Part shown: one piece after another, positions 37,948 to 59,416 of the stretch
Layout: each line of letters opens with the position of its first letter
Numbering within the stretch: position 1 is the stretch's first letter
Source: Ceratodon purpureus
Lineage: Eukaryota; Streptophyta; Bryopsida; Pseudoditrichales; Ditrichaceae
Length of the DNA: 64,000 nt
Assembly: GCA_014871385.1 (NCBI GenBank)
Contig: CM026433.1
Coordinates: 3,419,101-3,483,100, forward strand
Reading direction: 5' to 3'
Made by a program: the position numbers and the translations under genes
The notes under the pieces: generated by a model
The model's input: the letters and a program-made list of their open reading frames with translations, nothing else
Told to the model about the DNA's origin: nothing
Databases searched by the model: none

Positions 37948-38036
37948 CCAAAAATCGCACCGGGGGTCAAAAGTGAGCAGACAAAAACCGCACCGGGGCC
38001 AATATTTTCGTGTGCAAAAAACGCACCGGGGACCCA
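37948..38036 (+). repeat. Three 33-bp units with CGCACCGGGG
   Basis: AAAAANCGCACCGGGG recurs at about 37949, 37982 and 38015 with changing spacers. The array lies about 120-210 bases upstream of the ATG at 38158. It is preceded by a GTGAGCAGTGAGC short tandem (37921-37947). Confidence 0.75.
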
Positions 38037-38157
38037 TGGCCGTGGAAATTTGTGGAGCATGTGTGGCATATAACCGTGGAAATTGCGAGGTACCGCCCCC
38101 GAATATTGGCAGCGGAAAGACTGTAAAATCCGACAGACGCTCTTGGGCGACCATAGA

Positions 38158-38658: not shown

Positions 38659-39453
38659 TAAGGCTAACAAAATATTTAAGTGTGAACTGCATTAGTGGTT
38701 GCAGCCGTAGCATCGTCCGAGCCTAGGAAATCTAAATGTCGTTATCATGTATCTTAACCAACCTGGGTACAATAAAGAATGACATGGGGGGCGAGAAAAT
38801 ATTTCAATTTTGGCATTTCAATTTCACTCGATCTAATGTGACATGTTTCACCTCCATTCTGGGTACAATTAAGATCCGTAACAAGGACGTAGTGCGAAGG
38901 ACGGCCGGCGTTATGAACTTTTATATTCATTATGAAACCATAAGTTACCGTGACGTAATTCTACAATTCCAATGTTAGTCCTGAACGGGTGGGCACCCTC
39001 GATATTGTTGGCAAGACTAAACTTACTGACGAATCCGTCAGCCACATACAGGAGAATGGTAGGGGTGCGGTACTAAGGTAGTAGGGTGAAGGGAAGGACG
39101 ACCGAGTGTCATGGGACTCCGACGGCCGGACTACTGCATCATCTGGAGCCGGTGGTACCTGGATTATAGTGAGATAGGAAATGAAAATAGTTTGTGGGAC
39201 AGTTTAGTGACAAAGAACTCAACATACACAGCCACTTGGTTTGTGAAACGGGGCTTGATGATGCACAGTCTGCTGTTAATTTGGTTCAAGAATTAAAGTG
39301 TAGTGGTTCAAACAAAGTGCAAATGTAAGCTTGGCAAAGATAGACTGATATCAAAGTGATTACATATGTATTAAGGGAGCAAGTTAAAAGCAGTACAACG
39401 ACTATACCCTGTTACAAAACAGCGACTATATCACGATGCTGTCAACATAGATG
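38659..39453. other. Spacer between two orphan genes
   Basis: No gene is called. A possible degenerate copy of the GC-rich inverted-repeat element lies at about 38985-39070 (GGGTGGGCACCC, then CTGACGAATCCGTCAG, then GGGGTGCGG). A TGGGTACAATNAAGA word occurs twice (38763 and 38865). Confidence 0.35.
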
Positions 39454-40128
39454 TCAAACGGGAACTTCCTTCGCCACCTCCGATACAGACTGCAGACTTG
39501 GACCTATCACAGAACTATCACAAATCCATCTTTCGCCATTTCGTTTCCATAGAGAAATCATGCGCAGCGTAGGGCACTGCGTGGAAGGGTTGTCAACAAC
39601 GTTAAGAACCTGCAGCCCCGAATACGCTTCCTGGCGGTACGTGTCCCTCCAGAAATCGACTCTCAGAAACGTGACTGGGTCGGGTGGGGAGGGCTGCGCA
39701 AAACACAACGTCACGCTATTGCCGTCCGGGAAGAACCCCACCTGACTCAGTCGATGAAAGGTTGTGGACTCACTCGGAGGAATATGAGGTGTCATGATTC
39801 CACCGGAAGGTGCTTCTTGAAAGCCTTGGCCAGGTACCCAGACAAAAAGCATGATGCACCTCATCATCTTTGGAGCGTTAACGGAATGGAGAAATTGATC
39901 ATCAAAGACCACACTGCAGGTAAACACTTTCAAAAGCCACGTCTTAAAATTCTGAGACCAATCCTCAGCGCACTGGTAGAGTGAGAACTCAATCTTGGCC
40001 TGGGCGGAGGGTTTGCGAAATACAATATCCCCGATCTGCGGATCCATCATGGAGCTGGTGTCTAACATAATTCGCGATTTACGGCCTAGGCTAAAATAGA
40101 TTGGTTTCATCGCGAGGTCCATTGGCAT
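39454..40128 (-). CDS. Uncharacterised protein, 224 aa
   Basis: A clean single-exon frame starts at an ATG (40128). A TATA box lies 40-50 bases upstream. The product has mixed hydrophobic and aromatic strands (FSLGRKSRIMLDTSS, MLFVWVPGQGF, VGFFPDGNSVTLCF, VDFWRDTYRQEAYSGLQVL). That suggests a compact beta-rich globular domain, without signal peptide or membrane helix. I do not know the family. Its neighbours and its upstream GC-rich element place it in the accessory island. Confidence 0.55.
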   Translation of the reverse strand: MPMDLAMKPIYFSLGRKSRIMLDTSSMMDPQIGDIVFRKPSAQAKIEFSLYQCAEDWSQNFKTWLLKVFTCSVVFDDQFLHSVNAPKMMRCIMLFVWVPGQGFQEAPSGGIMTPHIPPSESTTFHRLSQVGFFPDGNSVTLCFAQPSPPDPVTFLRVDFWRDTYRQEAYSGLQVLNVVDNPSTQCPTLRMISLWKRNGERWICDSSVIGPSLQSVSEVAKEVPV

Positions 40129-40167
40129 GAGGCTTCAGCTGAGAATGATTATGCGATCTCCACTAAC

Positions 40168-40180
40168 CTCATATATAGAG
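40168..40180 (-). promoter_or_regulatory. TATA box of the 39454-40128 gene
   Basis: CTCTATATATGAG on the minus strand lies 40-52 bases before the ATG, so the transcribed leader must be short. The GC-rich inverted-repeat element sits about 410 bases further upstream. Confidence 0.5.
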
Positions 40181-41171
40181 ACCATCCCACAAGCAATCAC
40201 AGAGCGCCGGAATCAGCAATGAAACATTGGTAATTGAATACAGCTTTATCGATTGAGGTGTATCGTACTCTCACGAATTCGGCGGCAGTCTGGCAGGATT
40301 CAGGTGAGTTAACCGAGATTTTTTGAACTCTGGTTATGAGGAAAGCGTGCATTTCGATGACCTCCAAAACATTATCTAATCATCATTTAGAATACAATAC
40401 ATATATCTCTCTTAATGGAGCAAACGGGATGATTATATAACGGGATATATACCTGCCAAAAAATCCGGCAGTAGGATCCCTGCAATATTGTGTCATCCGG
40501 GAGATCAACATGAATTTTACCGGACTTAAATTACTGAGATGTCATTTTGTTACCCGTAGGGTAGTTCTTTCAAGTGGTGGAAGGGCGCCACCCGTGGTTT
40601 TGGTTCGGACCCAGAACGTAGTGCCGGATCCGTCAGATGATTTCCGGGACGGACTTGAGGCAAGGTACCCTGCCGCGGGAGGGGAACGAAGTGGACTCAA
40701 AAAAACCGTCAGCCGGGTTTGGGAAGGGGCCGTGATGAGGGGGACCCGGCCCAATATCAGAATTCTTCATTATGCCATGACGACAACGTTTTTCGGGATG
40801 AGAATTGCGACGGCGTTTGGATGGATGCAACAGTTACATAGCAGAGAAGTGAGAGCATGTGCATTCTATGTCTTCGGTGTGATTGGGTACCATTGATAAT
40901 ATGAAATTTTACTATCGTTGGCGCATAAAGTAGATCAATTTCTGGGAAAACTTAGAATATTTATAGAAATAAATACAAATATACAAAAATGTCTGGATTG
41001 AACCGTATACTAAACGATGCTCATGCCAACACATGATCTGAATATCCGACATGAATACGAGCTGTTTTGCCACCGCTTTAATCTGTGACGTAATAGGAAT
41101 AAAAATGTCACCGAGTTCGTACCGAGCGCCCTAGGATGAAGGTAGGGGAAAAAGACACATCAGAAGCAAAC
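40181..41171. other. Spacer holding a GC-rich inverted-repeat element
   Basis: Apart from the element at 40588-40684 no feature is supported. A plus-strand frame of 128 codons (40510-40896) runs straight through the element and is probably chance. Confidence 0.4.
40588..40684. repeat. GC-rich inverted-repeat element, diverged copy (E1)
   Basis: CACCCGTGGTTTT on the left and TGCCGCGGGAGGGG on the right flank a centre GTGCCGGATCCGTCAG, which is nearly identical to the centre of the 53397-53480 copy (GTGTCGGATCCGTCAG). It is slightly longer and more diverged than the others. Confidence 0.55.
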
Positions 41172-44100
41172 CTAGACATTGATAAGCGAAAGAAGGCCAC
41201 TCTGAAAAATAGCCTTGACCTCGTTAAAGCTGAGGCTTGGAGCATGGATGTAGGAGTCCTGGTGAATATCAAGGTTGCATATAGCATTGAAGATGTAATA
41301 GAGATGCTTGCAAGGCACCCAGGGAGGTCGTTTTCCCAGCGACTTGATGGACATTTCCTTGAAGTTGGGGCAGGTGCAGGCGGGCTCCGGGCCAACTGTT
41401 ATTTTGTAGACGTTGGACTCCGATACGGTCTCAGAGACAACGCTGATGATGCACCCGAAACCTGGGTTAGGTATGAGTGTGACTGATTGGATTCGAATGG
41501 AGAGTAGAGTAGATGAGGCCCAGTTGTTCTCGTGCTCTGTTCGTGGCACCCGGTTACAACGCCGAATCTTGAATCCTCCTCGCACCGTGGGATATATTCC
41601 TGGAGCAGGGGGTACACTCCACTGCGATAGGTCAAACCGTGGCCGCTGTGGGAGAGATGCACCGTCGTGAAAAACTTGGTGAGCGGGTAATTCTTGGCGT
41701 TGAGGGAGTCTGAAACCGGCTGCCTCGAGGTCAAGTATGTCCCTCTTTGAAAGGCGAGAGCCACGCTTGACAGGCCAGACAAGCGGGGGAGGGGGCATGC
41801 TGGAGACCCAGTTCCGCTTAGTACCCATGACGCATCTCTGGATGTCGTCGTTACAGAAGCAGAACTGCATCCATTTTTGCTGATCCTTCCTGACGTCGGT
41901 GAAGATGCCCCAGTAGCATGGCACAATTGTAGCCTTCTTTCCCCGTATGAGCCTCGCCGTGCACTTCTTATTCGTCCTCGCCTGTTGAGCAAAACACGCC
42001 TTCGCCGATCCCTTTGGAAGCCTGACAAGGTGCCACATACTCTCGTCCACATCCGTCTCCTCCACAGCGGTTACGTGATGACGACTCCTGTTCTCGTCCG
42101 GGCTTGAGACTGGCGATGGGGGTGCCGCTTGGACCGTTTGTGGAGGTGAATCCTGTCGTTCAGCATCAGGCTCCTTGCGTGCTCGCGTATTCCTAGTGCT
42201 CAGACGAGGTTGAGAAAAATTTACCTTGTCCGGCCTGTGGGAGTCATATTCGGATCCGATCGGTTGATTCAGCTTCCGTTTCGTGGACCCAAAGAGCTCC
42301 TCGCCTTCGCGATGTGGCTCACGGGAGAGCAACTGTGGAGCGTCATGGAAGTGTTCAGTGGCATCGGCAAGGCGCTTGGGAATCCCTGATTTTTGAGCTC
42401 GCCGTAAACGGAGTTCGGCTTTGCAAGGTCCCTTACCCGGGGTCTCACCTCGCAGGTAGGCGCTATAGTTAGTGCATTGCATGAAGCCCCTGACATAATC
42501 GTCCACCGTGGCAAAGTAGATGTTGTCGCCACGATTGCCCGACATCTGAAGCCATATATTGTGCACAGTCTCCGAGAGGTTGCAAGAGGGCATCTCGTCC
42601 TTCTCGGCGTCCGTAAGGTCCTGCAATCAAAGAAATTGCTGATTCAATCAATTCTACGTCAAATAAGTGTATTAAGTGACTGGATAAAAAAAGAGATGTT
42701 GTACTCACCAATTGCATGAAGCCTCCCCACTGCCGATATCTAAAGTGCCAAAATACGAGCCAGAGTTCGAGGTCACGAAGACCGGAGGCAGTAGTAGCGC
42801 CTGAGGAGGTCCACCATGCTCGGATCGCGTGGAAACGAATGTCGGCTTCTTCCATGTTCTTTGCATCACGATACTGCTTGCAAAGCACGTAATGCTGCCT
42901 CTGCAAATCTGATCCGATGATGTAAGCCTCAGTGTGCTTCCTAAGTGAGGTTGCCCAATGAAACTGGCACGTACGCTCACGGTCTGGCATTGGAACCGTC
43001 GCGTCGCCACTTCCATAGATCTTACGCACACAGTTCCAGTTGGCCTGGGCGCTGTCCGCCATGAAGCCCTTGAAGTTGACTTTGTCATAGCCATATTTTG
43101 CCATTATTCCGTTCAGGAATTGCCACATCACGGTCTGGGCCCTCACGTCTTCTGACTGCATATCACAAATCGCGATAGTCATGACCCGGCAATACTGAGA
43201 GTCATAGACATGACATGCCATGGTTGTCCAACCCTTTGTGCGCTTGACGTGATCAAACATAATCCAGGAATCCTGGAGATCCCCGCCAGGTTGCATTCGC
43301 TTTACGAGGTCCACTCCCGACCCGGGACCTTTCTCGGACATCTTAAAGATAAAAACCTTATCCCCTTCAGAACCCTGCCCGGGAAATTTATTGTCATGAA
43401 TAAACTCCCACTTGCTGCAGCCCCGCAAGGCAGCGATGCCGTCGATAATGCCCAGGTTACCGATCCCCCTGAAGGTCGTCACGGCATTCTTAAGCCCGGG
43501 CTTGCTGAGTGTATAATACTTCTTGAACACCTCATCCAACTCTTCGTCCGAAAGAATGGTCCGCTTCTCCCCCGGTGCAGTTAGGAGGTACTCACTCAGA
43601 AAATCCTTACTCGCCTCTAGAGCTAGGGCCGATGTCTTGGCGTACGGAGTGTTCTGCATATGCAACTCGAGTAGGTCGAGAACCTTCTGCTTGGTCTCCC
43701 TGCACTCAACGTATCCAACAGGGTGGTTATGTGTACCGATATGGATACACGCACGTGACATCGCAGGATTCCCGAGCACGTAGTACATCCTTGCAGGGCA
43801 CGTGGCGATGCATTCCGGGGGATATCTGCAGATTTTGCATACAAGTGTGGACTTCGGAGGAGGATCACAACCAACGACAAACGGGGTAAGCGTGACACCG
43901 TCCCACTCAGACTCGTTCACCTCCATCTTGCGTTTGTCTCCTCGAAGCAAGAAGTCGCACTTCTCGTTCTGGCATTTCAGATGACCTGCACATACAGAAT
44001 ATCTGAAAGTCAGTCCTTGGTCGTTTGTGATGTTGGTCGTCATGGTCTTGCACCATGGATGTGCGTCTTACTTCTTATCCATCCCTGCCATCGACTTTGC

Positions 44101-44733
44101 GCTCGCTGCAGTGCCGCGATCAGGGATTGGTGGAAGCTCGAAGAGCACGTCCCCGTTAAACTCGGTCGGTAGAAATGGCACCCGATCCCTCTGAAGTGCT
44201 CTAAAGTCCAACCTCGACAATGCATTCCTCGCTCCGGGTTTGGAAAAAAGACGCATAAGGCCGGGGATGACACTGAAGCTACCCGATACTGGTTTCTGCG
44301 AAGAACTAGGCTGAGCTTGGGACGGCGTAATGAAATCATCCTTATCTGACTCACTTAGGACATGAATGCGTTGAGCTACGGGTTGTTTCACAGCAGGATG
44401 GGGCTCGGTTCCAACATCGACAGTCGATGTCATGGATCGGCCCGGTGTTAATATCTCAGTGGATGCAGCCCAACGATCCGCAGTGAGTCCCCTCACGACA
44501 TATCTTCTAGCCTCAAGAAGCCACTCCCTACCATCCTTAGCTCTAATCGGCATCTGATATACAGTTTGAATCAGTTCGCCGTCGTCGTTGACAATTTCTT
44601 CCTCAAGATGGACGGACTCAAGAACAAGGTTGTATCTCACGCTCAACAAGATAGCGGTAATCGACCCTACACCCTCCGAATTACATGGGACACAGAATGG
44701 AACATCGTGACCTTCAGCACGTATACGAGCCAT
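41172..44733 (-). CDS. MULE-like transposase-derived SWIM zinc-finger protein
   Basis: The exons are 44072-44733, 42709-44002 and 41172-42620, with phases 2 and 0 matching, giving 1134 residues. The ATG at 44733 was chosen; the frame extends only seven codons further, to a GTG. Exon 2 starts with a Cys/His-rich block (about 222-315: CAGHLKCQNEKC, CKICRYPPECIATC, CIHIGTHNHP). A MULE-type RNase-H-like segment follows, with acidic candidates D471 (WIMFDHVKRTKGW) and D537 (FMADSAQANWN) and a CQFHW at 566-570. A SWIM finger is at 1067-1091 (CTC...CKH). Mutator-like transposases share this order of zinc motif, MULE domain and SWIM. No third catalytic acid was assigned with confidence. The gene looks whole and is transcribed divergently from the ParB-methyltransferase gene, 442 bases away. 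It could be an active transposase or a domesticated one. Confidence 0.82.
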
Positions 44734-45175
44734 CTCTACGGGTAAGATGTGCACAGAGTGGAAGAGCCGAAGTGAAGCAGGAAGGCTGTTGCATTGGGTG
44801 GTTTAAGAGTTTTGTAACCAAGTAGGTGATAGTTCACCATTGCAGCGTGGTTCAAGTCCAGTATCATGTCCCAGAATATAGTTGAACAGCTTTTATTTTG
44901 GGCACACAATCAGCATTAATGACTGACAGATTCAAAAATAAATCGTCTATGAGAAGAAACCGTCATGGCAAAGCCTATGACGCCCTATGGAACCTCAATT
45001 AATAGGCGAACTTAGAGCTCGGTGGGGGACATTTAGCCTAAGTGCATCACACATTGGCCTTAGTCATTTTCAACATAGCACGGTTGAGGTTCATTTCTCT
45101 CTCAATGCATCAAGGATCTGATAAGAGTATGAGCCGGTTTTGTCTTCGAAGTAAGTTTTACGTTCACCGTCACAG
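44734..45175. promoter_or_regulatory. Shared divergent promoter region
   Basis: This 442-base interval separates the start codons of the MULE/SWIM gene (left, minus) and the ParB-methyltransferase gene (right, plus). It contains GACTGACAGATTC near 44920, a relative of the CTGTCGGAT word in reverse sense. No clear TATA box is seen on either side. Joint regulation is inference. Confidence 0.45.
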
Positions 45176-48100
45176 ATGCCCAAGTCACATCGGAGTGGGG
45201 GGTTAGGCTCCCCCAGTGAAGAAACCCAGGAGAGATCAGGGAAGAAGCGCAGAAAGAGTAAGACGGGGTTGCGCTTGACGGACAGGAAGTATCAGAGTCA
45301 GAGCAAGAGTCAAAGCAAGGTTGTTCGTTCAGTAAGCTCGATTCTCAGGGACTCGAGATCCAAGATTGAAGGGTGTCCGAGCGTCAACACTGGAGGATCG
45401 GCCACGAAAGTTAGCAGCAATCACTTCGTCGACGGGCAAATGACGGTGGCCGTCTCAAGGAGGGTGTTCAGCGATCTACACGCCAGTTCCATTCTTCAGC
45501 CGCGACATTCTGATGTAAGCTTGTCAGCACGATGTCTTGGTACGTTCTAGACGCAGCTGTAGCATCATGATTGATCAGCGAGATTTTCGCTAGCCAGTGC
45601 CAGGCGGGATCAAGTACTCGTAGGACTGGTTTGCGGCATCAGAATAGTGAGTGGTGTGATCGTCATGATAAGTGTTTTATGGTTTAATAGTTTGCCATCG
45701 CAATTTTCATGGTACGCTGGGCGTAGAGGAGGGAGTGGTTGTTGTCATCATCCAACCGGGTTGAAGCCGGCCGCGGTGTGTACTAGCGGCTTATGAGGGT
45801 TTTAAAAGTTTGTAGGTTCTTGGCATGCATCACAGTCATTGTCATACTTAACTTTGAGTAGGAAGTTGGTGCGGTCATCATTGTAGTTAGCTGTAGGAAT
45901 TGATGGTTGTCGCGTTTAGGGTAGAGTGGGGGCCGCCGCGAGCAGGAAGTGTGGCTTAGAAGCTAATCGTGGAAAGGGTGTGAGCAAGAAGTGTGACATA
46001 GAAGCCTCTCGAGGCAAGGGAGTGAGCACGCATAAATTGACAGACGGGAACCCTTGCTCTTCAGTTTCCTGAGGGTTGCGGTGTTGGAGGTCGGAGATGC
46101 AAGGAGGGGGTTTGGAGTGAGGTTCTTTGGTAGGTTAAGGGTATGCTGAAATGGTGTAAGTATAGGTTTTGAGAGGGTCTCAGAGGGGCGGCTTCAGAGC
46201 ACATCTCCATTTGGTTTGCCGTTGCAAGGTTTAGGTGGATAGTGCGAGGTCTGAATTATTGTGGCCGAAAAGGGTTTGTGGGTGTCAAGAGCGGCGTTTT
46301 TTCAAGGCTTTAATCATTGGGAGTGCACATCAACTAGTGACGGATTGCCGTATAATATGCATTACATCTGTAAGTGTTGCTTAGGGTTTTTGTGACTTCT
46401 TAGGGTTTATGATGTTATGCTTCGCATTTGGGTGTATTTGTTGTGCTCTGAAATGCGGCCTTCTATTGACTTGCATGTAACGTGCCTCTACCTTGCAGGG
46501 CGCGATGAGCACTTCCCACGATATGGTAGACGCGGCCACAGAGGCAGTGAAGAGCGTGATAGACGATATTCCGAGAGGTTCCTTCATGGACGAGGATATG
46601 GGTAGTTCGCAACCTCCCATCCGTAATGGCAGGGCCCCACCAAAAGTAAACTTTATGGGCTCCTTGCTCGAAGGAGATGATGAAGTGGGCAAGGCGGGGT
46701 TCTCGAGCGAGCAGCAGGAGGAGGGCTCGCGTGAGCAGCAGGAGGATGGCTCGCGTGAGCAGCCGGAGGAGGACTGGCTTCAGCAAGAACCCAGCAAGGA
46801 CAAGGACAGCAAGGAGGATGACGATCAGACCGAGGATCAGACCCAAGTTGGTGATGGCGAAGCCGACGCTGATACTCTATTGAGCCTTGGTGGGCAGGTG
46901 GAAGAGATTGAACCTCCTCGAAAGCCTGTGAATGTTCGGCAAGCATTCCGTCAATTCAGGGAGGAGTTGAAGCCGGACCCATACGCTGCATTACTCAAAA
47001 TGCGCCGCAGACCTCACCAATATTCAATGATCAAGATTCCCTTATGCCGGTTAATCCCATGTGATTTCGTGCGTCCAGCAATGCAGAGTGATGTACAGAA
47101 GTTGCAAGCTGAGTTCTTCAACGGCATAAGACCCGGGTCTGGGGCATTTTATGTTGCAGATACATCGCACACGGGGGACGTCGCAAGTGTCACCGAGGAG
47201 ATGAAGTCAGGATGGTGTAACGCTTGGAAGGTGTTGAACGCTGCGTTCGAGGATGAGATCAGGCAGCACAGGGAGACAAAAGATCTTACAGGAAAGATGT
47301 TTTATGTCTTCGATGGTAACCACCGCACAAGGGCATGGCGGGAGTTCATCGAAGTGGAATACCCAGATGATCTTGAATGGGCTAAAGCAAACGGAAGGCC
47401 GGACTGTATTCTGCTCGATGTGAAGGGAAGCCGTGAAGCTCTAGTGACAGCAATGCATGCCATCAACAAGTGAGTCCTAAACTGTGCAAGAGTATTGTGT
47501 TTTCTCCGGATGTTGATGTTGGATATAATAACATGGAAATTTAGAATCTTTGATATTAAAGAAGTGTGTGTTGTATTCGACACAGGGCCAATGAGGATGC
47601 TTACGTCAAAGAAAGGCTGCCGCACACTCTACACAAGATACAGACGTACGGGCAAATGTCTGTGGAGGAGCTGGAAAGGAGTGGAATTCTAACGCCGGAT
47701 CTTCTGGCGCGCACGAAGAGTTCAACTAAGAAGTCGTGGCACTCGATGCCTCAAGAAGTATTTGTGACGTTTTTACACAGCGTAAGTGTTATAAGAAATC
47801 AGTGCTGTCAATTCGTAATTGGATGATTCAAGTCCCGAGATGTTAATGGCACGTGGACTGAAACAGGCAACATTGGCCCAAGTCGCAGAGGAGGCTTCTC
47901 AAATTTGGATCAACGAGCACCCTGGTGATGATTCAGGGCACGAGATGAAGGCAGCTGTGGACAAGGCCGTGAAGGAAGCCAAGGATAGGCTGCAAACAAA
48001 GTTCAACAGAGAGCAAGCCGTTGCAAATCCAGTCCATGGCAAGGGATTTCAAAACGAGGTAAATACTTTGGAGTTGATCAATTGGGTTATTCTTTGAATA

Positions 48101-51100
48101 TAGGACGTTCAAATTTGTGGTGATGAGTGGAAATTGATCTCAAAAATGGTCTGTCGGATTGTTCTGTAAATCTTTGGACGTTCGGATTCCGAGGGGATGT
48201 GCCCATTTAGTTCGTAGAAATGATCTGTCGGATTCTTATGAGAAATTTAGGATGTATAATTTCCAAGGGGATGTGCCCATCGAGCTCCTTTAAAATGATC
48301 TGTCGGATTCTTGAAAGAATTTTCGGACGTTCATATTCCGAGGGGATGTGCCCATTAAGTTCGTATAATTGATCTGTCGGATTCTTATGAGAAATTTAGG
48401 ATGTATAATTTCCAAGGGGATGTGCCCATCGAGCTCCTTTAAAATGATCTGTCGGATTCTTGGAAGAAATTTCGGACGTTCAATTTCCGAGGGGATGTGC
48501 CCATTTAGTTCGTAGAAATGATCTGTCGGATTCTTATGAGAAATTTAGGATGTATAATTTCCAAGGGGATGTGCCCATCGATCTCCTTTAAAATGATCTG
48601 TCGGATTCTTGGAAGAATTTTCGGACGTTCATATTCCGAGGGGATGTGCCCATTAAGTTCGTAGAAATGATCTGTCGGATTCTTATGAGAAATTTTTGAT
48701 GTTTAATTTCCAAGGGGATGTGCTCATTGAGCTCCTTTAAAACGATCTGTCGGATTCTTGGAAGAAATTTCGGACGTTCAATTTCCGAGGGGATGTGCCC
48801 ATTAAGTTCGTAGAAATGATCTGTCGGATTCTTATGAGAAATTTTGGATGTTCAATTTCCGAGGGGATGTGCCCATAAAGTTTGTAGAAATGATCTGTCG
48901 GATTTTTATGAGAAATCTTGGATGTTCAATTTCCGAGGGGATGTGCCCATTGAGCTCCTTTAAAATGATCTGTCGGATTCTTGGAAGAAGTTTTGGACGT
49001 TCAATTTCCGAGGGGATGTGCCCATTAATTTCGTAGAAATGATCTGTCGGATTCTTATGAGAAATTTCGGACGTTCAAATTCCGAGGGGATGTGCCCAAT
49101 GAGCTCGCGGAAATTTTCTAAAAAATCCGACAGATCAATTTATAACACTCATGGTAGCAAGGTACCACAGAGATTTTACATACGTTTAGATGATTTGGAT
49201 CAATTAATTGCACTAAGATGTGTTTTTATAGTAATATTAAGGAAAATGTGCCTCAAAATGCGAAAAATACCGAAGTACCCTGGAATGTTTGAGTCGAGAA
49301 ATCATCTTTAGAATCCGACAGATGGTTTTTCTGTGTACATTTACCTAGGTACTCTGGAAAACTTGTCGCAAGAAATTATCTCTAGAATCCGACAGATGGT
49401 TTTCGAGTGTCAATCATCTCAAGGTACCTTGTCAAGTTGGTGATAGCAAACAAGTTTAGAAATCCGAGAGATGATTTTATTGTTTCCATTTACCTGGGTA
49501 CTCTGGAATGTTTGTCCGAAGAAGTACTCTCTAAAGTGTGTCAGATGATTTTAATGTGTCGATGACCGCAGGGTACTCTGTCAAGTTGGAGAATTTAGAT
49601 TAGCTCTGAAATCCGACATATGGTTTTGATTGTGTCCAATTACCTTGGTACTGTGGGAAGTAAGACAGTAGAAATAATCTCTGAAATTAGACTGTTGAAT
49701 TCAATGTGGCCAATTCCTCAAGGTACGTCAGGAAATTAGATATCGTAAACAATCTAAAACCTATGACAGATGGTTTATTTGTGTCAAACTACCTAGATAC
49801 CTTGGAAACTTGGAGATATGAAATAATCTCAATAATCCGACAGACGATATTGATGTGTCGACTTCCGCAAGGTACCTTGTCAAGTTGGCGATCAAAAATC
49901 ATCTCTGAAATCCGACAGAGAATTATTTTGTGTTCACCTAGCTAGGTATTGTGGACTATATGACTCAAGAAATATTCTCTGAAATCCATTACATGATTTT
50001 TATGTTTCGAATACCCCAAGGTACCTCGGAAACTTAGCATTGATAAATCATCTGTCTTATCCGATAGATGAAATCTATATCGTATTCTTTACATGGTACT
50101 GTGTTGCATTCGTATGACAGATCAGCTGTTGGACCCTTTAGCGGTGATCTAACACACTTTCTATGAAAGAAAATGATGATTTTACATAGATAGTTAATGC
50201 TCTGTTATGAGGAAATTTGGTATTCGATGCAATGATGTCTCTCGGATTCTAATCTTCACTAGTCTGATTACTTGGGATGCTGTTGATTTTCAGATCAAAA
50301 GACATTATGATCGGCACCAAACCAAGGTTGAGATGACCATCGACAAGCTCCAAGCAATTGCAACATCTGAGGTGTCGGCCAAAACAAAAGCGAAATGGCT
50401 GAGGTGGTGGAACGGGTCGGCGAGTTCAAGGAAAACACTGAAGTTTCCACCATCACCTTGCTCAATTGAAGTGCTTAACCCCTGGATTACAAAAGCTGCA
50501 TTTTGGGCAAACGTAAGTGTAGTTCATCATTTCTAGAACTCTGGGTTGTTACACTGATTCGAGGTTATAGCCGATGGCTTCCTCTTTAGTTATTTGTGTC
50601 TCACTCCTAAGTTGATTGTTTTGTATCAGTTGGAAGACGAAGTCGAGAAAGAGTGCCTCAACTGGTTGGCAACCAGTTCCGATGCAGAGGAAGACATTAA
50701 CTCCAAGCGCACTCCTATGGCCGAGTACATCGAGAAGTGGCGTGTGCTTCTATGGGAGAAGGCATACTTGTCGTTCTTCACTGGAGCTAATGTGTATTCG
50801 AAGTCGCAACCATTCAATTCCCAACCAGGGACCGACATGGCTTGGAAACGATGTCTGTATCGGTACTTTAAGCGGGAGCTCATCCCAGCTGGTGTAGTTA
50901 AGAGTATACCACCTCCGTGGTTCAGCTGGACGGAGACATCGAATTCCGAGTTCATCTTCACAACCAACCAGCGGAAGATGTTCAATTTGAACCATCTGAT
51001 TGAGTGCTGCTGGTATATCGAGTGCCCAAAGTCATTTGTAACTGCTGAGGAGAAGGCTATAAGGGAGATGTTTACCAAGAGGAAAGATGGGGAAGACGAC

Positions 51101-52791
51101 ACCCATGATATTTCAGATGAAGCACTTCCTGCTCATGATGCAGAGCCAGATCAGGATACACAAGGTGTTTCGACATCCACTGGTGCCGGGGATGCGAACA
51201 CAAAGAAACGGAAGAGGGGAGCGAAGTCGGCATCGAAGGAGTCCCACCAGGAACCAGTGAAGAAGAGGAGCAGGGGGAAGAAGTCGGACCCAGCGACTGT
51301 TGAGCCGAATGGTGCGGAGAATGAGACATTCTCTCCAAGGATTGGACATGCTGAGAAGCCAGACGTCAGCGCACCTCAAGCAAGATGCCCTGTTCATGAG
51401 TTGATTCTGAATGAATCAATAACTGAGTGGCAGATGGCAAATCCTAGAATGAGGTTGAAAAGCATGCCAAAGGCTTTCAACGACATGGTCCAGTGGATTC
51501 GGAGCGTCACCCCTCAACGGGTCCGGATGAAGGACGGGAAGAGTGTTCGGGGGGGTGGATTGGCAGATCTCATTATCATTGATATTCCGGAGGGTCTACC
51601 GGTCCCTGGTATATCCGATGAGGACGAGATTCCAGATTGGAACAGCAGAGGCGACAATTACCTTGCAGCCGTCTTTGGCTTTGTTAAACTCGTTCTCCAA
51701 GACCAGGGGTGTGTGATCATTATCCATCCGGATGACAATGGCAAAATTGAGGACGAGATTCGTGATTTTCATCAAGTGGTTGAATTGAAGTCTGAGAGGT
51801 CGTGGACAGGCATCAATAGATTGCTTCTTCGCTCCGCAAAAATAAGCGGCATGACAACATGCTTCTTTAAGGTGCAACTTCTCACATTATCCTCGAATAA
51901 CAGCTTTGAATTCAGACCGACACCCGAGGATTACAAGAAAAAGAGCATCGACATCGTTGACCGTGATGTCATCCTCAATTGGGTTACGCTGGAGCAACAG
52001 ACGATGCGCAAGGAGGTGCCATGGCGAGGAGCGAGGGAGAAAGACGTGCTGTTCATCGAGAGCTTAATCAGAGCCACCACCGACCCTGGTGACGTCGTCG
52101 TCGATATCAGCGCCGGAACGGGTAAGTCTCGTCGTTTTTGCACATGCGAGGTAACTTTGAACAAGGCCTTTTTATTGAAATTTGAAACTATTAAAATCTA
52201 ACAGAGAGGCACTCAATTGTATCAGGTGCATCAATCAAAGCATGCCGGCAGTCAGGACGGAACATAGTTGCGCTTGAGGATGATCCTGAGCTGTATACAG
52301 AAGTCCTTAAGAAGTTGGCTTTGCCGCCACTGCCTCTTCCGAAGGCGGATTCATCCCATGTACCGATCAAGCCGATGATCGAAAATGAAGTTCTGGCCAC
52401 CCCTAAGCCGGTGAATAAATTCATCGCCATGATGACTGAGGAAAGCGACGACGAGTAAGTGAGTATTTCAATGAACATTTTCTAAATGTGACATTTTGAA
52501 ATGACATGGTTTTTTGTTAAATATGAATCTGTTTTTTAATACGGTTGTGGTTGCAGACTGCTAAGTCCGCGTTCTGAGGGGATAATTAACGAATGCATCA
52601 AGAAGATTGCACTATCACCTGATATGCTACGGCTGCCAGAGTATGCCGAGCTAGGGGCTCAATTTCAAGCTACTGTGGAGTCTCCCACATTGAAGAAATT
52701 TACGCGTAGAAAATACGATGGTCGAGTCCTAAACTTTGTGGATATTGAAGCCGAAGTTGTTACTCATAGCATTCTTGTTGATCCAGAGTGA
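45176..52791 (+). CDS. ParB-like domain fused to a DNA-methyltransferase-like domain
   Basis: The eight exons are 45176-45514, 46499-47469, 47586-47781, 47840-48058, 50294-50512, 50630-52121, 52226-52454 and 52557-52791. Every phase matches, giving 1299 residues. An acidic, Gln-rich region (about 170-235) precedes a ParB/sulfiredoxin-like domain at about 290-450 (IKIPLCRLIPCDF; the family hallmark is FDGNHRTRAW at 384-393). A nuclear localisation signal (KKRKRGAK, KKRSRGKK) lies at about 840-864. The C-terminal part resembles beta-class DNA N6/N4 methyltransferases. Motif IV reads DIPEG (966-970) where DPPY is expected. The late block REKDVLFIESLIRATTDPGD leads to motif I, DISAGTGAS (1140), and GRNIVALEDDPELY. 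ParB plus methyltransferase fusions are known in phages and bacterial mobile elements. Here the SAM-binding loop is kept but the catalytic motif is not, so a DNA-binding pseudoenzyme is likely. Intron 4 is filled by satellite repeats. Confidence 0.82.
48120..49130 (+). repeat. 75-bp intronic satellite, forward half
   Basis: Thirteen units are spaced almost exactly 75 bases apart; CTGTCGGATT starts at 48151, 48225, 48300, 48374, 48449, 48524 and so on to about 49043. The unit is TGATCTGTCGGATTCTT, then AGAAATTTNGGANGTTCAAT, then TTCCGAGGGGATGTGCCCAT. Two unit types alternate (a TTCGTAGAAA start and a GCTCCTTTAAAA start), which gives a 150-bp higher-order repeat. It fills the first half of intron 4 of the ParB-methyltransferase gene. 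Confidence 0.92.
49110..50010 (-). repeat. Intronic satellite, inverted and more diverged half
   Basis: AATCCGACAGATGGTTTT and relatives recur about every 72-75 bases (49123, 49313, 49388, 49461, 49606, 49837, 49906), each followed by an ACCTNGGTACTNTGG-like block. The core word is the reverse complement of the forward half's. The flanking part of the unit differs, so this is a second satellite sharing the same core rather than a simple inversion. Confidence 0.75.
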
Positions 52792-53170
52792 TCGTAGTTT
52801 TATATGTTAAAGATTTCTGGATTTCCAGTTATTCCTTATGTATCGAGGATTTTCAATTATACAGTTATTAATTTCATCAATACGGCCTATTTACTTATTT
52901 TGCTTAATAGTTACTGATTTGAATGATCTCAGTCCCACATTGCAGTGATTAGATACTTCTTAATTAAACCGCCTTTATCCATTCCAAATTGAAATAGCTG
53001 ACTCAATCTTATTTGTTCACATGCTAATATGTTATGTTGTTATTTATTTTTTGGTCACTATCTCTTATTTTTCTGATAATTTGTTTCTACTATCTTGAGA
53101 CTTCAATAGGCAGTTATCTCTCTCTTGCAGTTACAATCAATTGTAACAATATTTAAAAATTCATTTAACC
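52770..53170 (+). repeat. Direct repeat across the ParB-methyltransferase 3' end, copy A
   Basis: This segment covers the last seven codons and the 3' flank of the gene. It aligns with 53665-54070 at an offset of 895 bases (GTTGATC at 52777 and 53672; GGATTTTCAATTATAC; GATTAGATA; TAGCTGACTCAATC). Confidence 0.75.
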
Positions 53171-53396
53171 GAGCTGGTGTTAATATCACAGTTTATATTA
53201 GAACAATTATAAACATTAAATGTTTTGTAAACTTTTCTCTGATTTATTTTTCTATTAAATTCTAATAAAACTATGCGCACATTTCTTATACATCCAATTC
53301 GGATCCGGGAGTCCGTTATGTATACTTGCATGCGTTTCATCTGAAAACGCCCATAACCGCAAGTCAATCTCCTATTTCCGGGTCACACCTACCTTC

Positions 53397-53480
53397 GACC
53401 CCGGTGGTTTTCTCGGAGCTTAGAAATCCTGTGTCGGATCCGTCAGTTGCTTTCGGCTTGCTTGACAAACCGCCGGGGTC
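53397..53480. repeat. GC-rich inverted-repeat element (E2)
   Basis: GACCCCGGTGGT on the left and ACCGCCGGGGTC on the right are inverted ends (11 of 12 match), 84 bases overall. The centre is GTGTCGGATCCGTCAG. It lies between the two copies of the 895-base direct repeat. Confidence 0.75.
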
Positions 53481-53664
53481 GATCTCCCGCTTCGTTGCTT
53501 GCCCTTTCTAGTGCTTGGTTTAGCACATGGATTTCCTGCGCGGTTCGGCACATGGTTTCTTTTTGCACTTGATATTACATTATTTTGCTGCTCATCCAAT
53601 CAATCTCTCATTCTTTTATCCGTTTTATTTTTATATATTTACTTCCATTATTATCAAAGCTTGC

Positions 53665-54070
53665 CATTTTAGTTGATCTGGAATAATCGCAGTTTATCAC
53701 GTGAATGTTTTTGGATTTTCAGTTATTCTCTATGTATTACGGATTTTCAATTATACTGGTTTTTATTTCAACAATACGGCATATTAACTTGGTTTGCAAT
53801 ATAGTTTCTGATCTAAACGAACTCTGTTTTTATTTTACAATGATTAGATATATCGTCATTAAACCGTCTTCATTCTTTCCAAATTCATCGAAAAAACGAT
53901 GTAGCTGACTCAATCATGTTTGTTGATATCCAAAAATGTTTTTTTGGTAATTATTTTTGTTTATCCTATTCAGCATCTTTTATTTTATCTCTCTCTCTAA
54001 TTTCAATAATAAGTTAACTCGCCCTTGCATTTTTTATTAAAAGTAATATTAATCAAGAATTCATTCAACC
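53665..54070 (+). repeat. Direct repeat, copy B: remnant gene 3' end
   Basis: This is the partner of 52770-53170. It begins with a decayed version of the last codons of the ParB-methyltransferase gene. It is therefore the stub of a former tandem copy of that gene or of its 3' flank, with E2 between. Confidence 0.7.
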
Positions 54071-54739
54071 TAACTTATGGAAATGCCTTACTTTCACAAC
54101 TCTGTTTTCTAATAAATGCATGCAACATTCAAAATAAATGAATTCAGGTTTCATAATAGACTTAAGTTTCTATTTAATCATATTAATCTAACAAAATCCA
54201 GCAACAAGTCCATTGAGACAATTTTCTCTTGCTTTCTTTTGTTCATTATATTACGCTCATATCCATTTATACGTTGATGCATAATCTTATATCGTTATTT
54301 TATTTCTTAAACTATTTGTCTAGTATTTATTCTACCACGCATTGATGCATTGTCTTCTCTTTGATTTCATCGTTTATACAATCCTTGACGGCTCCAAATC
54401 TTGTTTCATTTCGTCAGAGTATCACACAATTAATCATACATCCTTTATTCTCAAGTAATATGTTCTTTATTCTTTCATTACTTGATTGTACAAAAGAATT
54501 CTGCAGTTAACGTTATATATTCTTAGTCAAGAATTTACATTAATATACGCTTTTAGAAGGAGGTAATTCAGTACTAAAAATAGCCCTGATACTCAAATGA
54601 AAGTGGCTCAGATTTCAAGAATTGAATTACAAGTTTACATTTGTAGTATCTCAAAAACATGAAATGGTTTGTATGAACATGCTCCCCGAATATGAAACTC
54701 AGAGGTAGGCGCCTTGAATAAAAGAAACTCAATCTACTA
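54071..54739. other. AT-rich spacer
   Basis: Nothing is recognised. It is the 3' side of the minus-strand gene at 54740-55219. Confidence 0.5.
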
Positions 54740-55219
54740 TTACAACCTCACTACCCAAACACCACGATCAACGTCGAAATACTCATTTCCGATGATTGCC
54801 GACTCGCGGCAATTGCAAACCCCCTGGTCTGGAATGAGCCTGAGTCCAGTGGTCCGCTCAAAGATATCGCGTGGAGGTGCAAAGCAAGGCATAATCAGAA
54901 TATCAAAGGCCTCTTCCATCAGACGCATGAACTCTTCGGCGCCAGTCGCAATATCAGCTGTCTTCGAAAGGCCTGCAATCGCTCTCCGAAACTCATCCCT
55001 CTCGTGCTGAACGAGAGCATCATCCAGTCTTCTGACCTCTAACTCGACCTCACTCTCCTCACAGTAGTAAGCCCGCGATCGAGATTGCCTTTGAGGGGAC
55101 CTTTCTGTTGCACAATCTACTGACTTAAGGTACAGAGAAGCCTTTGCAATTTGCCTTCTGAATCTCCGAATGAGTTCTACGCGACGGTGATTGAGGCGCC
55201 TAGACAAAGAAATCGACAT
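54740..55219 (-). CDS. Hypothetical basic/helical protein, 159 aa
   Basis: The frame runs upstream to 55270, but the first ATG is at 55219, directly after TTTTAAG, which could itself be a 3' splice site. The 5' part is strongly basic (MSISLSRRLNHRR, IRRFRRQIAKA). A charged helical middle follows (ESEVELEVRRLDDALVQHERDEFRR), and then a hydrophobic segment FMRLMEEAFDILIMPCF. No family is recognised. A GC-rich inverted-repeat element lies about 295 bases upstream, the same arrangement as at the two paralogous genes at 58.0 and 62.7 kb. Confidence 0.5.
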   Translation of the reverse strand: MSISLSRRLNHRRVELIRRFRRQIAKASLYLKSVDCATERSPQRQSRSRAYYCEESEVELEVRRLDDALVQHERDEFRRAIAGLSKTADIATGAEEFMRLMEEAFDILIMPCFAPPRDIFERTTGLRLIPDQGVCNCRESAIIGNEYFDVDRGVWVVRL

Positions 55220-55513
55220 CTTAAAAGAGTTTGCTAACAAATCACTAGTCGAAAACAAAACAACATCCAATATTAGAAAGTGACCATTAGGTCAACTTGC
55301 GGTTTTATGCAGATTTTCAGGCGCCGCCGCAAACCCCTTGGAGTTCTTGCGACCTAATATTTACCCTAACCCTTACATCTACCCTCAACCTAGCATATAC
55401 CCTTACTTATGTCACAAGCTAACATATACCCTCAAATTGCCCATCTATCCAGATAGTATCACAACTGACCCTAAGACCCGAAGACCTTGACCCCGGGTAT
55501 GCATCCATACTCC

Positions 55514-55596
55514 ACCCCGGCGGTCATGGAGAAACGCAAAAACCCACTGTCGGATTTGACAGTCCTTCCTGGACTCCTTTCGATAGCGCCGGGGTC
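55514..55596. repeat. GC-rich inverted-repeat element (E3)
   Basis: ACCCCGGCGGT on the left and GCGCCGGGGTC on the right are inverted ends, 83 bases overall. The centre CTGTCGGATTTGACAG is itself a small palindrome. The element is located 295-377 bases upstream of the ATG of the gene at 54740-55219. Confidence 0.75.
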
Positions 55597-56059
55597 TCTA
55601 TGGGCAACATCCAGTAGCAATTTATCCAATCGACCATACATACCTCAACGGACTAAATTCTGATTTTCGATATGTATCTACTACTTTGAAATACCACTGA
55701 TACGATTTAGTAGTTTAAAAGTATGTTCATTACTAGTTTATGGTCCGTTTCTTGTTTCATGTTAATCATTGAACATCCAATTGAATGATGGAATTCTTGA
55801 CATACCTCACTGATTTCATTGTTAAAAATTTAATTACTTAGATTTCTTCAACTTGACTGATATACACTTATCATTCCATAGAATTCAACACAAGCACATA
55901 TCACTCTATCCATTCAGACATCTTATCAATAAATAAACACATCAACTTCATTTTATCAATGTAAAACACATCAACATCTTAGTACTTATCCTTACACTAA
56001 TTCTAAAACTTTCAAATATCAATCCTTATCCTTATACACTTTTGATTATTTATTTGCAA

Positions 56060-56380
56060 ATATAGATATTCTTATTAATAAATCACCCCAACTTCTCCAA
56101 TTCTACCACTCCTCCTTCAATATCTATTGTCAAATATTTCTCCACCAACATTATAGTAAAAATCCATTACTCAATAATCTAATGGACTTTGTAATTGATT
56201 CTCTTTTATTTTTTATTCCTTGTCTTCTATTTTTTCATTATAATTTCTTTGTCTTTGATAAGTTCCTTAAATCGTTATCTTCATTTGCTCGCGTTAATCA
56301 ATTTTATGTTAGATTAATCCATTCATTATCATGGTGACGAGTCTAGATATATTTAAAAAATAAATAAAATAAAGGAAACT
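56060..56380 (+). repeat. 440-base-offset direct repeat, copy C
   Basis: It aligns with 56500-56822: AATAAATCACCCNAACTTCT, ATTCTACCACTCCTCC, GTCTTTGATAAGTTCCTTAAATC and a TCTAGATATATT end. The copies are diverged. Confidence 0.65.
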
Positions 56381-56499
56381 CATCCCACAGCCATGCAACT
56401 CATCCCGCAGAGGGTTCATTAGACCCCGGTAGAGGGCTCATTTCTTCTCACTATTCTCAAAATTATAGCTTACACACTTGAGATTAAGTATCTTGGCAT

Positions 56500-56822
56500 A
56501 TACGTATTTTCTTCTTAATAAATCACCCTAACTTCTACAATTCTACCACTCCTCCATCATCTTCTATCATCATATATTTTTGCACCAACTTCATATCCAT
56601 CACAAGATAATCTACAAGACATTGTACTTAATTCTATTTTATTCCATTCCTTCTCTTAATTTCTCTAATTTTTTGTTTTTTTTTGTCTTTGATAAGTTCC
56701 TTAAATCTTGATCTTGCTCCTTTCATGTATGCCTTGAACTGATCAATTTATTTTTTGTCACACTAATCCATTTATTTATGAGGTAACGAATCTAGATATA
56801 TTGAGAAAATAATAAAAAATGA
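56500..56822 (+). repeat. 440-base-offset direct repeat, copy D
   Basis: This is the partner of 56060-56380. It sits just upstream of E4 and the promoter of the 58015 gene, so the promoter-side sequence was duplicated as a block. Confidence 0.65.
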
Positions 56823-57035
56823 GACATCATTATAAATTGCTGTTTTGTTTTCTAGACCTTTTCTTGAAAAATATAAACCATGCTTTGATCCCATAAATGG
56901 GCATATGCCCTCTGAAAATGCTTTATATTAGGCATGCACTCATCTGATCCTACCCATCCCGACAACTCTGGCTACGCACTGCAAAAGTTATACACACTCA
57001 CGAGCCATCCAACTCATCCCGCAGGGGGTTCACTC

Positions 57036-57119
57036 GACCCCGGTGGTCTTTACTTTTGGCAAGACACGTCTGTCGGATTATTCAAGAGTCGATGGCCCAT
57101 TGCCAATACCACCGGGGTT
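57036..57119. repeat. GC-rich inverted-repeat element (E4)
   Basis: GACCCCGGTGGT on the left and ACCACCGGGGTT on the right are near-perfect inverted ends, 84 bases overall. The centre is GTCTGTCGGATT. It lies about 255 bases upstream of a TATA box. Confidence 0.8.
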
Positions 57120-57164
57120 GGCACCGCCAACCGAGCTACCGGTGCCATGGTAGCCATGTCGCTT

Positions 57165-57285
57165 GCCCTGACCTAGTCGCCGCCAGCGCCGCGTTTTATT
57201 CGCTGACCTAGTCGCCCCCCCGCGCCGTCACCGCGTTCTATCCGCTGACCTAGCCGCCGCCAGCGCCGCCATTTTTGGCGGCCAA
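57165..57285 (+). repeat. GC-rich GCTGACCTAGTCGCC tandem in promoter
   Basis: Three copies of CTGACCTAGYCGCC with CAGCGCCGC-type spacers lie between E4 and the TATA box. Confidence 0.7.
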
Positions 57286-57290
57286 GCAAC

Positions 57291-57300
57291 CTATTTAAGA
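57291..57300 (+). promoter_or_regulatory. TATA box of the 58015 gene
   Basis: CTATTTAAGA follows the GC-rich promoter repeat. A likely leader exon ends at a donor (CTAAG/GTGCGT, 57345/57346) about 50 bases downstream. The coding start lies after the intron at 58015. Confidence 0.55.
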
Positions 57301-57404
57301 ATCATATGTTTCCACTGATCTTCATCTTCTCTTCGAACTGCTAAGGTGCGTTTCTTTACCTTCTCTTTGACCACATGAGATGCGTTCCTAAGATCCTTCA
57401 TTGG

Positions 57405-57730
57405 GTTTGTGAGGGCGGGCCGAATGGGGTGAGAGTGGATAGAGGGGATATAGAATGAGAGGAGAGGTGGGTGAGGGGTGAGGGCGGGCCGAATGGTGTA
57501 AGAGTTGAGGGCGGGCCGAATGGGGTGAGAGTGGATAGAGGAGATGAAGAATGAGAGGAGGTGAAGAATGAGATGGGAGCTGGGTGAGGGTTGAGGGCGG
57601 GCCGAATGGGGTTAGAGTTGATAGAGGAGAGGTGGGTGAGGGGAGAGGGCGGGCCGAAAGAAGAGAGAGTTGATAGAGGGGAGCTGGGTGAGCCGTGAGG
57701 GCGGGCCGAATGGGGTTAGGAGGGGATAGA
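57405..57730 (+). repeat. G-rich minisatellite in the 5'UTR intron
   Basis: GAGGGCGGGCCGAA occurs six times (about 57411, 57481, 57508, 57595, 57648, 57697) with GAGAGTGGATAGAGG-type spacers of variable length. It lies inside the proposed leader intron. Confidence 0.85.
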
Positions 57731-58014
57731 AGGTTTCTTTAGTCTGTGAAATGTGATTGTTGCAACTTCTTATCTCATAGTGCTAACGTGCCAAACGTGG
57801 TGGCTGACAGTTGTGATTCAGGCGTTTTTCAAACTTGTAGCGTTGCATCATCATTACCGTTCGATCAGTGAAGGTAAATAGTGTTATCATATTACACTCA
57901 TTCACCTATTTCATATTTTCATATTTTCGGCATTGCTTAGTATTCATTCTATCGATGTTCTTTAGTTATGCTAACATATTAACTTCAGAAAGATATGTCA
58001 ATTGCTCTTATCAG

Positions 58015-58545
58015 ATGGCACACTCCCCTCCCACCGCCGAGGAGCCTTGCAAGACGTGCTTAGATGGGACTGCATGCACCTGCTCCGCAACTCCAATCCC
58101 TCTCCCAAGCTCTGCGGAGGTCTGCAAGACTTGCCCTTTTCCCGGTGCTTGCACCTGTCCCAGCTTATCAAGTCCACCTGCGCTCAAGATCCCGGTCCCG
58201 AGGAGTTTGTTTCCAATGCCATCTGAGGAGCGCGTTGACCAGTGCGGCGACTCTCTCCCTGCAACCAGAGACACTATGCACGTGATGTGTGTGCAAGGTC
58301 ACGGGCGCTCAATTTGTTTTGAAGTGAAAAGTTCTGAGGATGGTCTCCCCGAGTGGGTCCAGAAGTGGATGGATGACGTTGCAGGTGGCGGCGACGGGCG
58401 TGACTACTACCCGAGTGGCTATGTATCTGAGGACGAGGACTCCGATTGTCTTGAGTACGCGGCAGAGTGTGTTTACGACGAGGTAGATAGTCCTGAGAAC
58501 CCCGTCGTACTCTTAAGCGACGATGACGAAGATTCGGATAAGTAG
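58015..58545 (+). CDS. Small Cys-motif and SIM protein, 176 aa
   Basis: The ATG at 58015 follows an acceptor (CTTATCAG), consistent with a 5'UTR intron. Residues 12-23 and 37-48 form a tandem repeat, CKTC...ACTC, reminiscent of metal-binding Cys pairs. Residues 89-120 (HVMCVQGHGRSICFEV, then GLPEWVQKWMDD) are conserved in the paralogue at 62658-63011. The acidic C terminus VVLLSDDDEDSD has the exact form of a SUMO-interacting motif. There is no signal peptide or membrane helix. A nuclear or cytoplasmic role in protein interaction is inference. No known family is recognised. Confidence 0.65.
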   Translation: MAHSPPTAEEPCKTCLDGTACTCSATPIPLPSSAEVCKTCPFPGACTCPSLSSPPALKIPVPRSLFPMPSEERVDQCGDSLPATRDTMHVMCVQGHGRSICFEVKSSEDGLPEWVQKWMDDVAGGGDGRDYYPSGYVSEDEDSDCLEYAAECVYDEVDSPENPVVLLSDDDEDSDK

Positions 58546-59416
58546 ATTTGTGCTTCTGTAGCTGTAGGTGTTCTATGCGGCAAACCATATTCTCGGCTCT
58601 CTAGGATGATGCTTCTGTATAACCAGTCGATCCCTTTAAACAGTGGATTTTTGTAAAAACAAGATATCGGGTTGTATAATATATTTGCATACTTTTGAAA
58701 CAAGCACAATTATCTTTGACTGACGATCAATATTTTCCTTCAATCAGCATCATGCATTTATCCTTAACCCCTAACGGCAAAAGCGGACGAAAAGTGTCCG
58801 CAACCAAACGATTTCTTTTATAACAATTTTATTAGTTTTTTTTTTATAACATGACTCTTACTGTTTAACAGTTTCATTGAAATTTCCTCATTCGAATTTA
58901 CTATTCACGCACTTTCCACATGTTGTTTATGAATCTATTCACTTTTTATAGTTTCAACTTTATATAAATTCTTCAACAGCAAGAGTCTTAATTCGGAAAT
59001 TTAAATCATTTTTTTAATACTGTTCACCGCTGCCACACCTTCATTCCAAACAATTCAAGTAATACTTCTCTTATCATTCTTATTCCTCGGATTTCATAAG
59101 TACGGTCGCATGAATTAATATTACAAGTTTTTAAATACGAGCATTAACTGCAAGTGTTCGCGGCCAGCAATTGGATATTGGAAATGTATGTGATAAGTAC
59201 TGGATATCTTTGAATAAAATAACTGCTATGTTAAACCGTTCTCTATTTTCAAAGGGTATAACTGTTACTGAAAAGGTATCGAGAGTGATATGAAAGGATG
59301 GGCACAATGCACATCAAGTTTTTTCAATATTTCAAAAATTAAAGCTCTGTAGTCTTTATTCAAAAGCTCCTAATCTTCAATTAGAATTCGATCAAATTTC
59401 ACATTTATTTTATAGC
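58546..59416. other. AT-rich spacer
   Basis: The 3' region of the 58015 gene, followed by AT-rich sequence. A GCGGACGAAAAGTGTCCGC hairpin lies at 58791-58809. Nothing else is recognised. Confidence 0.45.

Follow-up and report, generated by a model that had tools for sequence, protein, structure and literature searches.

A ParB-like and methyltransferase-like accessory gene of a giant moss transposon, with a motif array in its own intron

What is an intron-bearing gene that joins a ParB-like region to a DNA methyltransferase fold doing in the genome of a moss? The gene in question lies at 45176-52791 (+) of a 64,000-nucleotide stretch of Ceratodon purpureus DNA (contig CM026433.1, positions 3,419,101 to 3,483,100), the whole of which is called the window here. 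A preliminary description of this DNA took it for an intact plant gene, descended from a phage or prokaryotic fusion and carried in a transposon-rich island. We are highly confident that it belongs instead, as an accessory gene, to a 26-28 kb terminal-inverted-repeat DNA transposon, and we propose, far more tentatively, that its product would recognize a motif array lying in the fourth intron of the gene itself.

The transposon has precise ends. Its left boundary at 37897 is common to four of the six other copies of the gene compared with the window (C7, C3, C11, and C12), and the left terminus CAGCGATGCTACTGTGGCAGCGG has 130 matches at no more than two mismatches in the genome searched (362,488,568 bases in 151 contigs, all genome-wide match counts given here being lower bounds), with none for a reversed-pattern control. 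Right ends were located in the C7, C3, C11, and C4 copies, and the C3 copy aligns with the window up to position 64000 at 99%, its right end lying 1.9 kb further on. Perfect 10-bp target-site duplications (TSDs) flank all three of the six compared copies that have both ends (C7, C3, and C11; attgctggac, ccaccgacac, and ctgttacatc), and these complete copies measure 26.5, 28.0, and 26.8 kb. The 500 bases past the window read N, and the right TSD of the window copy is therefore unread. The terminal inverted repeats differ between the two ends at bases 2, 4, 5, 8, 11, and 12 and are identical from base 13 to base 35 of the compared span, and the right arm of the element differs among copies. An inverted left terminus on C4 and C5 was considered as the right end and dropped because both share sequence beyond it and the TSD-flanked end lies elsewhere. 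The gene thus belongs to a transposon rather than being a passenger in a transposon-rich island. A TSD of 10 bp falls within the 8-11 bp range given for MULE elements (PMC6446971, PMC3903597), and this length, together with motifs read by eye in the transposase, suggests a MULE-like superfamily.

The gene is present in many copies and its protein is maintained by selection. Exon 6 has 87 matches genome-wide, comprising 61 near-full-length copies of the window's gene (gene 1; identity 90-100%, 53 of 61 stop-free within the match), 10 partial pieces, two of them perhaps parts of the same copy, and 16 members of a second family (gene 2; identity 50-52%, 3 of 16 with a stop). Selection was assessed on exon 6 in 20 gene-1 copies, chosen as the best among the 61 and including 17 distinct sequences. 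Relative to the majority sequence, the distinct variants comprise 41 synonymous changes, 36 non-synonymous changes, and one stop; omega is 0.24 when computed from these variants and 0.19 for pairs of copies, and the ratio of non-synonymous to synonymous changes is 0.88, whereas 500 neutral simulations average 2.58 and never fall below 1.26. The protein is under purifying selection, with omega about 0.2. Between gene 1 and gene 2 (exons 2, 4, 5, and 6), the non-synonymous divergence pN is 0.29 and the synonymous divergence pS is 0.76, meaning that synonymous sites are saturated.

Two further observations concern the distribution of copies. An inverted copy with an identical exon 6 lies about 68 kb from that of the window (C13:3537410-3538897, minus strand). 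Stops in near-full-length gene-1 exon 6 occur in 5 of 13 copies on C6, the largest contig (110.5 Mb) and a presumed sex chromosome, versus 3 of 48 elsewhere; the Ceratodon purpureus genome is given as about 360 Mb, with U and V each above 100 Mb and about 30% of the genome (PMC8000587).

With exons rebuilt from the sequence, the predicted gene has eight exons and seven GT-AG introns, and joins in frame to encode 1290 amino acids (aa). The eight exons in phase of the preliminary description are confirmed, the length given there being 1299 residues. The same model gives stop-free products of 1298-1306 aa in four of the six other gene-1 copies, the remaining two being C11, with a frame error, and C4, without a match to exon 1. 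In the second family, which is about 50% identical, protein-level matches to exons 2-8 were found in the same order (exon 3 by one comparison only), and exon 1 was not found in the roughly 500 upstream bases that were covered. Conservation of the predicted eight-exon gene across copies and families far exceeds chance. The motifs described earlier are all present, with FDGNHRTRAW at residue 384, DISAGTG at 1131, and LEDDPEL at 1153. A nuclear localization signal and a long acidic linker had also been described; the basic KKRKRG at residue 831 and an acidic repeat in exon 2 are there, and the former may act as such a signal.

The beta-class methyltransferase fold named in the preliminary description is supported. 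The gene-1 protein matches PF01555 (N6_N4_Mtase) at E 2.3e-7 and 31.4 bits against a curated cutoff of 26.7, its Pfam matches being to methylase models and none other, and the methyltransferase-like region matches PHROG 3008 (DNA methyltransferase) at E 3.6e-9 and, in the PDB, DpnA and RsrI at E 3e-4 to 7e-4 and 5hfj at E 3.2e-4. The corresponding region of gene 2 has no PF01555 match, and a single-sequence AlphaFold2 prediction of the region has a predicted local distance difference test (pLDDT) score of 30. Active beta-class DNA methyltransferases carry a motif IV of the form [DNS]PP[YFW], with an aromatic last residue. Here, gene 1 has D-I-P-E, and both gene 2 and one third-family place (L053) have D-V-P-E, so that glutamate takes the position of the aromatic residue in all three families where it is readable. 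When the gene-1 DIPE is aligned with DPPF, DVPY, DLPY, and DPPY of four phage methylases, the aromatic residue is constant among the phage sequences and the PP is not. Motif I, DISAGTG, is retained in gene 1. Judged from known methylases, a motif IV that lacks its aromatic residue speaks against catalysis, and the domain is thus probably inactive as a methylase.

A genome scan for PF01555-like sequences returned 150 matches that include further families, among them C8:9595672, which covers almost the whole profile, C1:5958254, and C5:15306119. L052, from one of many short-frame places, has a motif X/I stretch resembling gene 1.

The ParB-like region resembles ParB in the GxxRxxA within FDGNHRTRAW and in a possible first strand, patterns that we take to be characteristic of ParB. 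It is the better conserved part of the protein, with 74% identity between the two families versus 49% for the methyltransferase-like region; its single-sequence AlphaFold2 prediction has a pLDDT of 38, too low for a usable model. The proposed descent of the fusion from phages or prokaryotes finds no support in the phage and viral comparisons. A phage search with the ParB-like region gave nothing at E up to 1, viral contigs yielded no relatives of exon 2 or exon 6, and the four phage methylases examined, from 264 methylase-matching phage records, are only 238-319 aa long.

What such a protein might recognize is suggested by intron 4. In the window (48059-50293), this intron contains TGTCGGAT 19 times, with 13 forward sites spaced 74-75 bp apart and six reversed ones, and in the gene-2 copy L040 it contains the motif 24 times, mostly at 149-bp steps; 200 base shuffles give expectations of 0.03 and 0.06. 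In L040, block 1 has nine forward and seven reverse sites and block 2 has one and six, six of them forming the palindrome TGTCGGATCCGACA. The motif is the commonest 8-mer common to these two intron sequences, and both families have it in the same intron, in two blocks with a 149-bp period. A further gene-2 copy, L039, has 30 sites, with eight palindromes, over the 3.2 kb that precede exon 5, and intron 4 of the six other gene-1 copies has 6-15 forward and 5-7 reverse sites. Across the window, 19 of 24 sites lie in intron 4, mid-element; in the three complete copies, single motifs are found some 230-240 bp in from the left end, and a palindrome lies roughly 1.2 kb short of the right end.

The palindrome also recurs elsewhere in the genome. 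It occurs at 591 places, whereas an assumed GC of 0.42 would predict about 0.8 and a reversed-pattern control has none. For 50 of these places, all on C1 or in part of C2, the distance to the nearest element landmark (a match to exon 6, the left terminus, or the transposase core) is at most 15 kb in 44 cases, at most 30 kb in 46, and at most 45 kb in 49; the 30-kb zone makes up 2.2% of the sequence covered. One site, C1:29000489, is no more than about 500 bp from the end of the C1 contig and far from any landmark used.

We therefore have a multicopy transposon gene, a protein under selection, a replaced motif IV, and a motif array in the gene's own intron in two families, all of which are observed. 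The reading we prefer is that the protein is a self-recognition factor acting on the element's own array. The ParB-like region would bind the TGTCGGAT array in the intron and the scattered copies across the element, the bound protein would spread or bridge along the element, and it would keep the element incompletely silenced by the host or ready it for transposition; the methyltransferase-like domain would act as a DNA- or S-adenosylmethionine (SAM)-binding module and not as an enzyme. We put this full mechanism, of which binding, spreading, and anti-silencing are inferred from sequence, a little below an even chance.

Several results weigh against it. The ParB homology is a resemblance of motifs only, every profile test having failed: the region has no Pfam (including PF02195) or NCBIfam match up to E 10, its best PHROG match is at E 0.13, PDB searches with two-family profiles of the ParB-like or methyltransferase-like region gave only weak, unrelated matches, the inclusion of gene 2 bringing no gain, and hhalign against 81 Spo0J-like ParB sequences (80 bacterial and one from a viral contig) gave 0.5%, a weak test with a three-row profile. 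A PF02195 scan of the moss's own genome had no match at E 1 or below, and the same scan matches in 11 of 14 control genomes. Of the ParB-like domain in the preliminary description, then, the motif resemblance stands and the domain assignment is without a profile match. As for the array, the eight best-conserved columns of the diverged block 2 are GTACCTTG and not TGTCGGAT, so that TGTCGGAT does not stand out in that block. Both introns also share other k-mers, for example, AGGGGATG, found 13 and 5 times, and the window and L040 introns align in short pieces only (best E 4e-4); part of the array similarity is thus common ancestry. Finally, the binder of the motif might be the transposase or a host factor.

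The evidence bears unevenly on the other explanations. Domestication of a single host gene from a prokaryotic ParB-methylase would fit the intact frame and introns, and is rejected for the window locus by the 61 near-identical dispersed copies and the precise transposon ends, which leave it a negligible probability. That the protein is catalytically active, an N6A/N4C methyltransferase binding its own transposon's DNA and marking it, as suggested for the Ectocarpus Sola1 protein (PMC12477816), is favored by the PF01555 match above cutoff, by the retained motif I of gene 1, and by two of the four compared phage methylases that likewise depart from PP in motif IV. We consider it unlikely given the glutamate at the aromatic position in all three readable families and the gene-2 region without a PF01555 match.

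The two remaining explanations concern the array itself. The protein could be a transposition factor, either a ParB-like nuclease or one bridging the ends with the transposase, and the array a loading or transposase site. The gene stands beside the transposase in divergent orientation, sites occur inside both ends of the three complete copies, and nicking is reported for a Bacillus ParB-methylase (PMC5512222); the bulk of the window's sites nevertheless lie mid-element in intron 4 and not at the ends, and this reading is rather doubtful. Alternatively, the array would be a neutral intronic satellite and the gene a selfish cargo with no role in self-recognition. Satellites arise readily and array size varies, with 6-15 forward motifs in six copies; however, intron, blocks, period, and 8-mer are the same in two families whose synonymous sites are saturated, and the protein is under purifying selection, so we regard a neutral array as improbable.

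The parS partition arrays offer one comparison for the self-recognition reading, the palindrome TGTCGGATCCGACA being reminiscent of parS. No ParA was noticed, though no search was aimed at it. The moss gene shares its domain pairing with bacterial and phage ParB-methylases, one of which, from a bacterium, is cited as having nicking activity (PMC5512222), and differs from them in having no profile-level ParB match and in being an intron-bearing gene of a plant genome.

Giant algal transposons with a ParB-methylase accessory gene have already been published. Sola1-1_Ec32 of Ectocarpus is a giant transposon of 21.5 kb with an accessory gene for a ParB-like and N4/N6 DNA-methyltransferase protein, and similar proteins (Iyer 2011, Petroll) are cited alongside it for green and red algal transposons (PMC12477816). 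Like it, the moss element is a giant DNA transposon, at 26-28 kb, with one large protein of this kind encoded on the strand opposite the transposase; unlike that Sola1 element, it is MULE-like, has a 10-bp TSD, and lives in a land plant. The replaced motif IV and the own-intron array are described here from the moss element. In part of the matching literature, covered by titles and the beginnings of abstracts, we found no moss case, which does not establish its absence from print.

A second parallel is provided by VANC of the Arabidopsis VANDAL MULEs, an accessory protein that binds a motif of nine bases, present as arrays in the non-coding DNA of its element, introns included (PMC5735166, PMC10398659), with tandem repeats that include the VANC21 intron (PMC5735166). 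Both systems have a MULE-type element, an accessory gene, and short-motif tandem arrays of varying copy number, including arrays in an intron of the accessory gene. In contrast, binding and methylation loss are demonstrated for VANC, whereas the corresponding activities of the moss protein are proposed; the moss protein also has a methyltransferase fold, with Pfam matches to methylase models only. That a moss MULE uses a non-catalytic ParB-methylase fusion on a parS-like intron array to escape silencing, as an independently arisen VANC-type system, is a somewhat unlikely proposition. Sequence-specific detail of how transposons escape silencing is known for few systems, and here a candidate protein and its candidate target motif occur together with a diverged counterpart of both, gene 2 and the array of that gene, so that target specificity can be tested by trying each protein on each array. 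With this element, the range of ParB-methylase accessory genes would reach beyond algal transposons to what is most likely a land plant, and the element suggests that a methylase domain can be retained after its catalytic motif has been replaced.

The features of the window copy are collected in the table below. The transposase frame has, as read by eye, a D...D core, a CxxH, and a downstream SWIM-like CxC...CxH pattern, which we take to be those of MULE transposases; Pfam gave no match for it at E values as high as 10, and the PDB gave none under E 0.1. Its core has 92 genome matches, a 777-aa frame being present in 33 of these 92 rows, 25 of which are stop-free within the match. In the window, an in-frame stop at 44068-44070 leaves a frame of only 532 aa, and as such the window copy may rely on other copies for movement. 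The C3 copy (L026) is open across this position, and a splice model placing an intron over the stop, which also lost the frame, was dropped. Gene-2 elements have a transposase about 72% identical to that of the gene-1 element.

Features of the transposon copy in the window
Feature	Positions	Strand	Basis and remarks
Transposon body	37897..64000 within window	+	left end common to C7, C3, C11, C12 copies; right end estimated 1.9 kb past window
Presumed 10-bp target duplication, left copy only	37887..37896	.	TSD length taken from C7, C3, C11; right-hand stretch reads N
Left terminus CAGCGATGCTACTGTGGCAGCGG, start of terminal inverted repeat	37897..37919	+	130 genome-wide matches
MULE-like transposase	41172..44733	-	exon 44733-42709 (start codon presumed), intron, exon 42620-41172; splice sites by eye
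Exon 1, ParB-methyltransferase-like gene	45176..45514	+	gene model; also modelled in other copies
Exon 2, ParB-methyltransferase-like gene	46499..47469	+	acidic repeats and ParB-like region 46940-47467, FDGNHRTRAW from 47309
Exon 3, ParB-methyltransferase-like gene	47586..47781	+	gene model; also modelled in other copies
Exon 4, ParB-methyltransferase-like gene	47867..48058	+	gene model; second-family comparison
Intron 4 block 1, satellite period 74.5/149 bp, TGTCGGAT forward	48143..49098	.	repeat and motif analysis
Intron 4 block 2, diverged, motif reversed	49312..50025	.	repeat and motif analysis
Exon 5, ParB-methyltransferase-like gene	50294..50512	+	gene model; second-family comparison
Exon 6, ParB-methyltransferase-like gene	50630..52121	+	basic stretch from 51203, motif IV position (D-I-P-E) 51581-51592, motif I from 52103
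Exon 7, ParB-methyltransferase-like gene	52226..52454	+	gene model; also modelled in other copies
Exon 8, ParB-methyltransferase-like gene	52557..52791	+	includes stop codon
Third gene, function not assigned	59294..60445	+	matched in both transposon families

The third gene (59294-60445) has no Pfam match, and its first part has no PHROG match. It is matched at 63-95% protein identity in five of the six other gene-1 copies (C4, C7, C1, C3, and C11; disrupted or partial in C3 and C11) and in the gene-2 loci L039 and L040. Gaps relative to the C3 copy upset its frame. The frames 57841-58545 and 62655-63011 share a stretch that looks similar by eye (GRS-I/L-x-FEV...WVQ-K/R-WM) and are perhaps a duplicated gene of the element. 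Immediately beyond the element's left end lies a DUF7869 protein frame (35266-37266, minus strand; E 9.6e-43).

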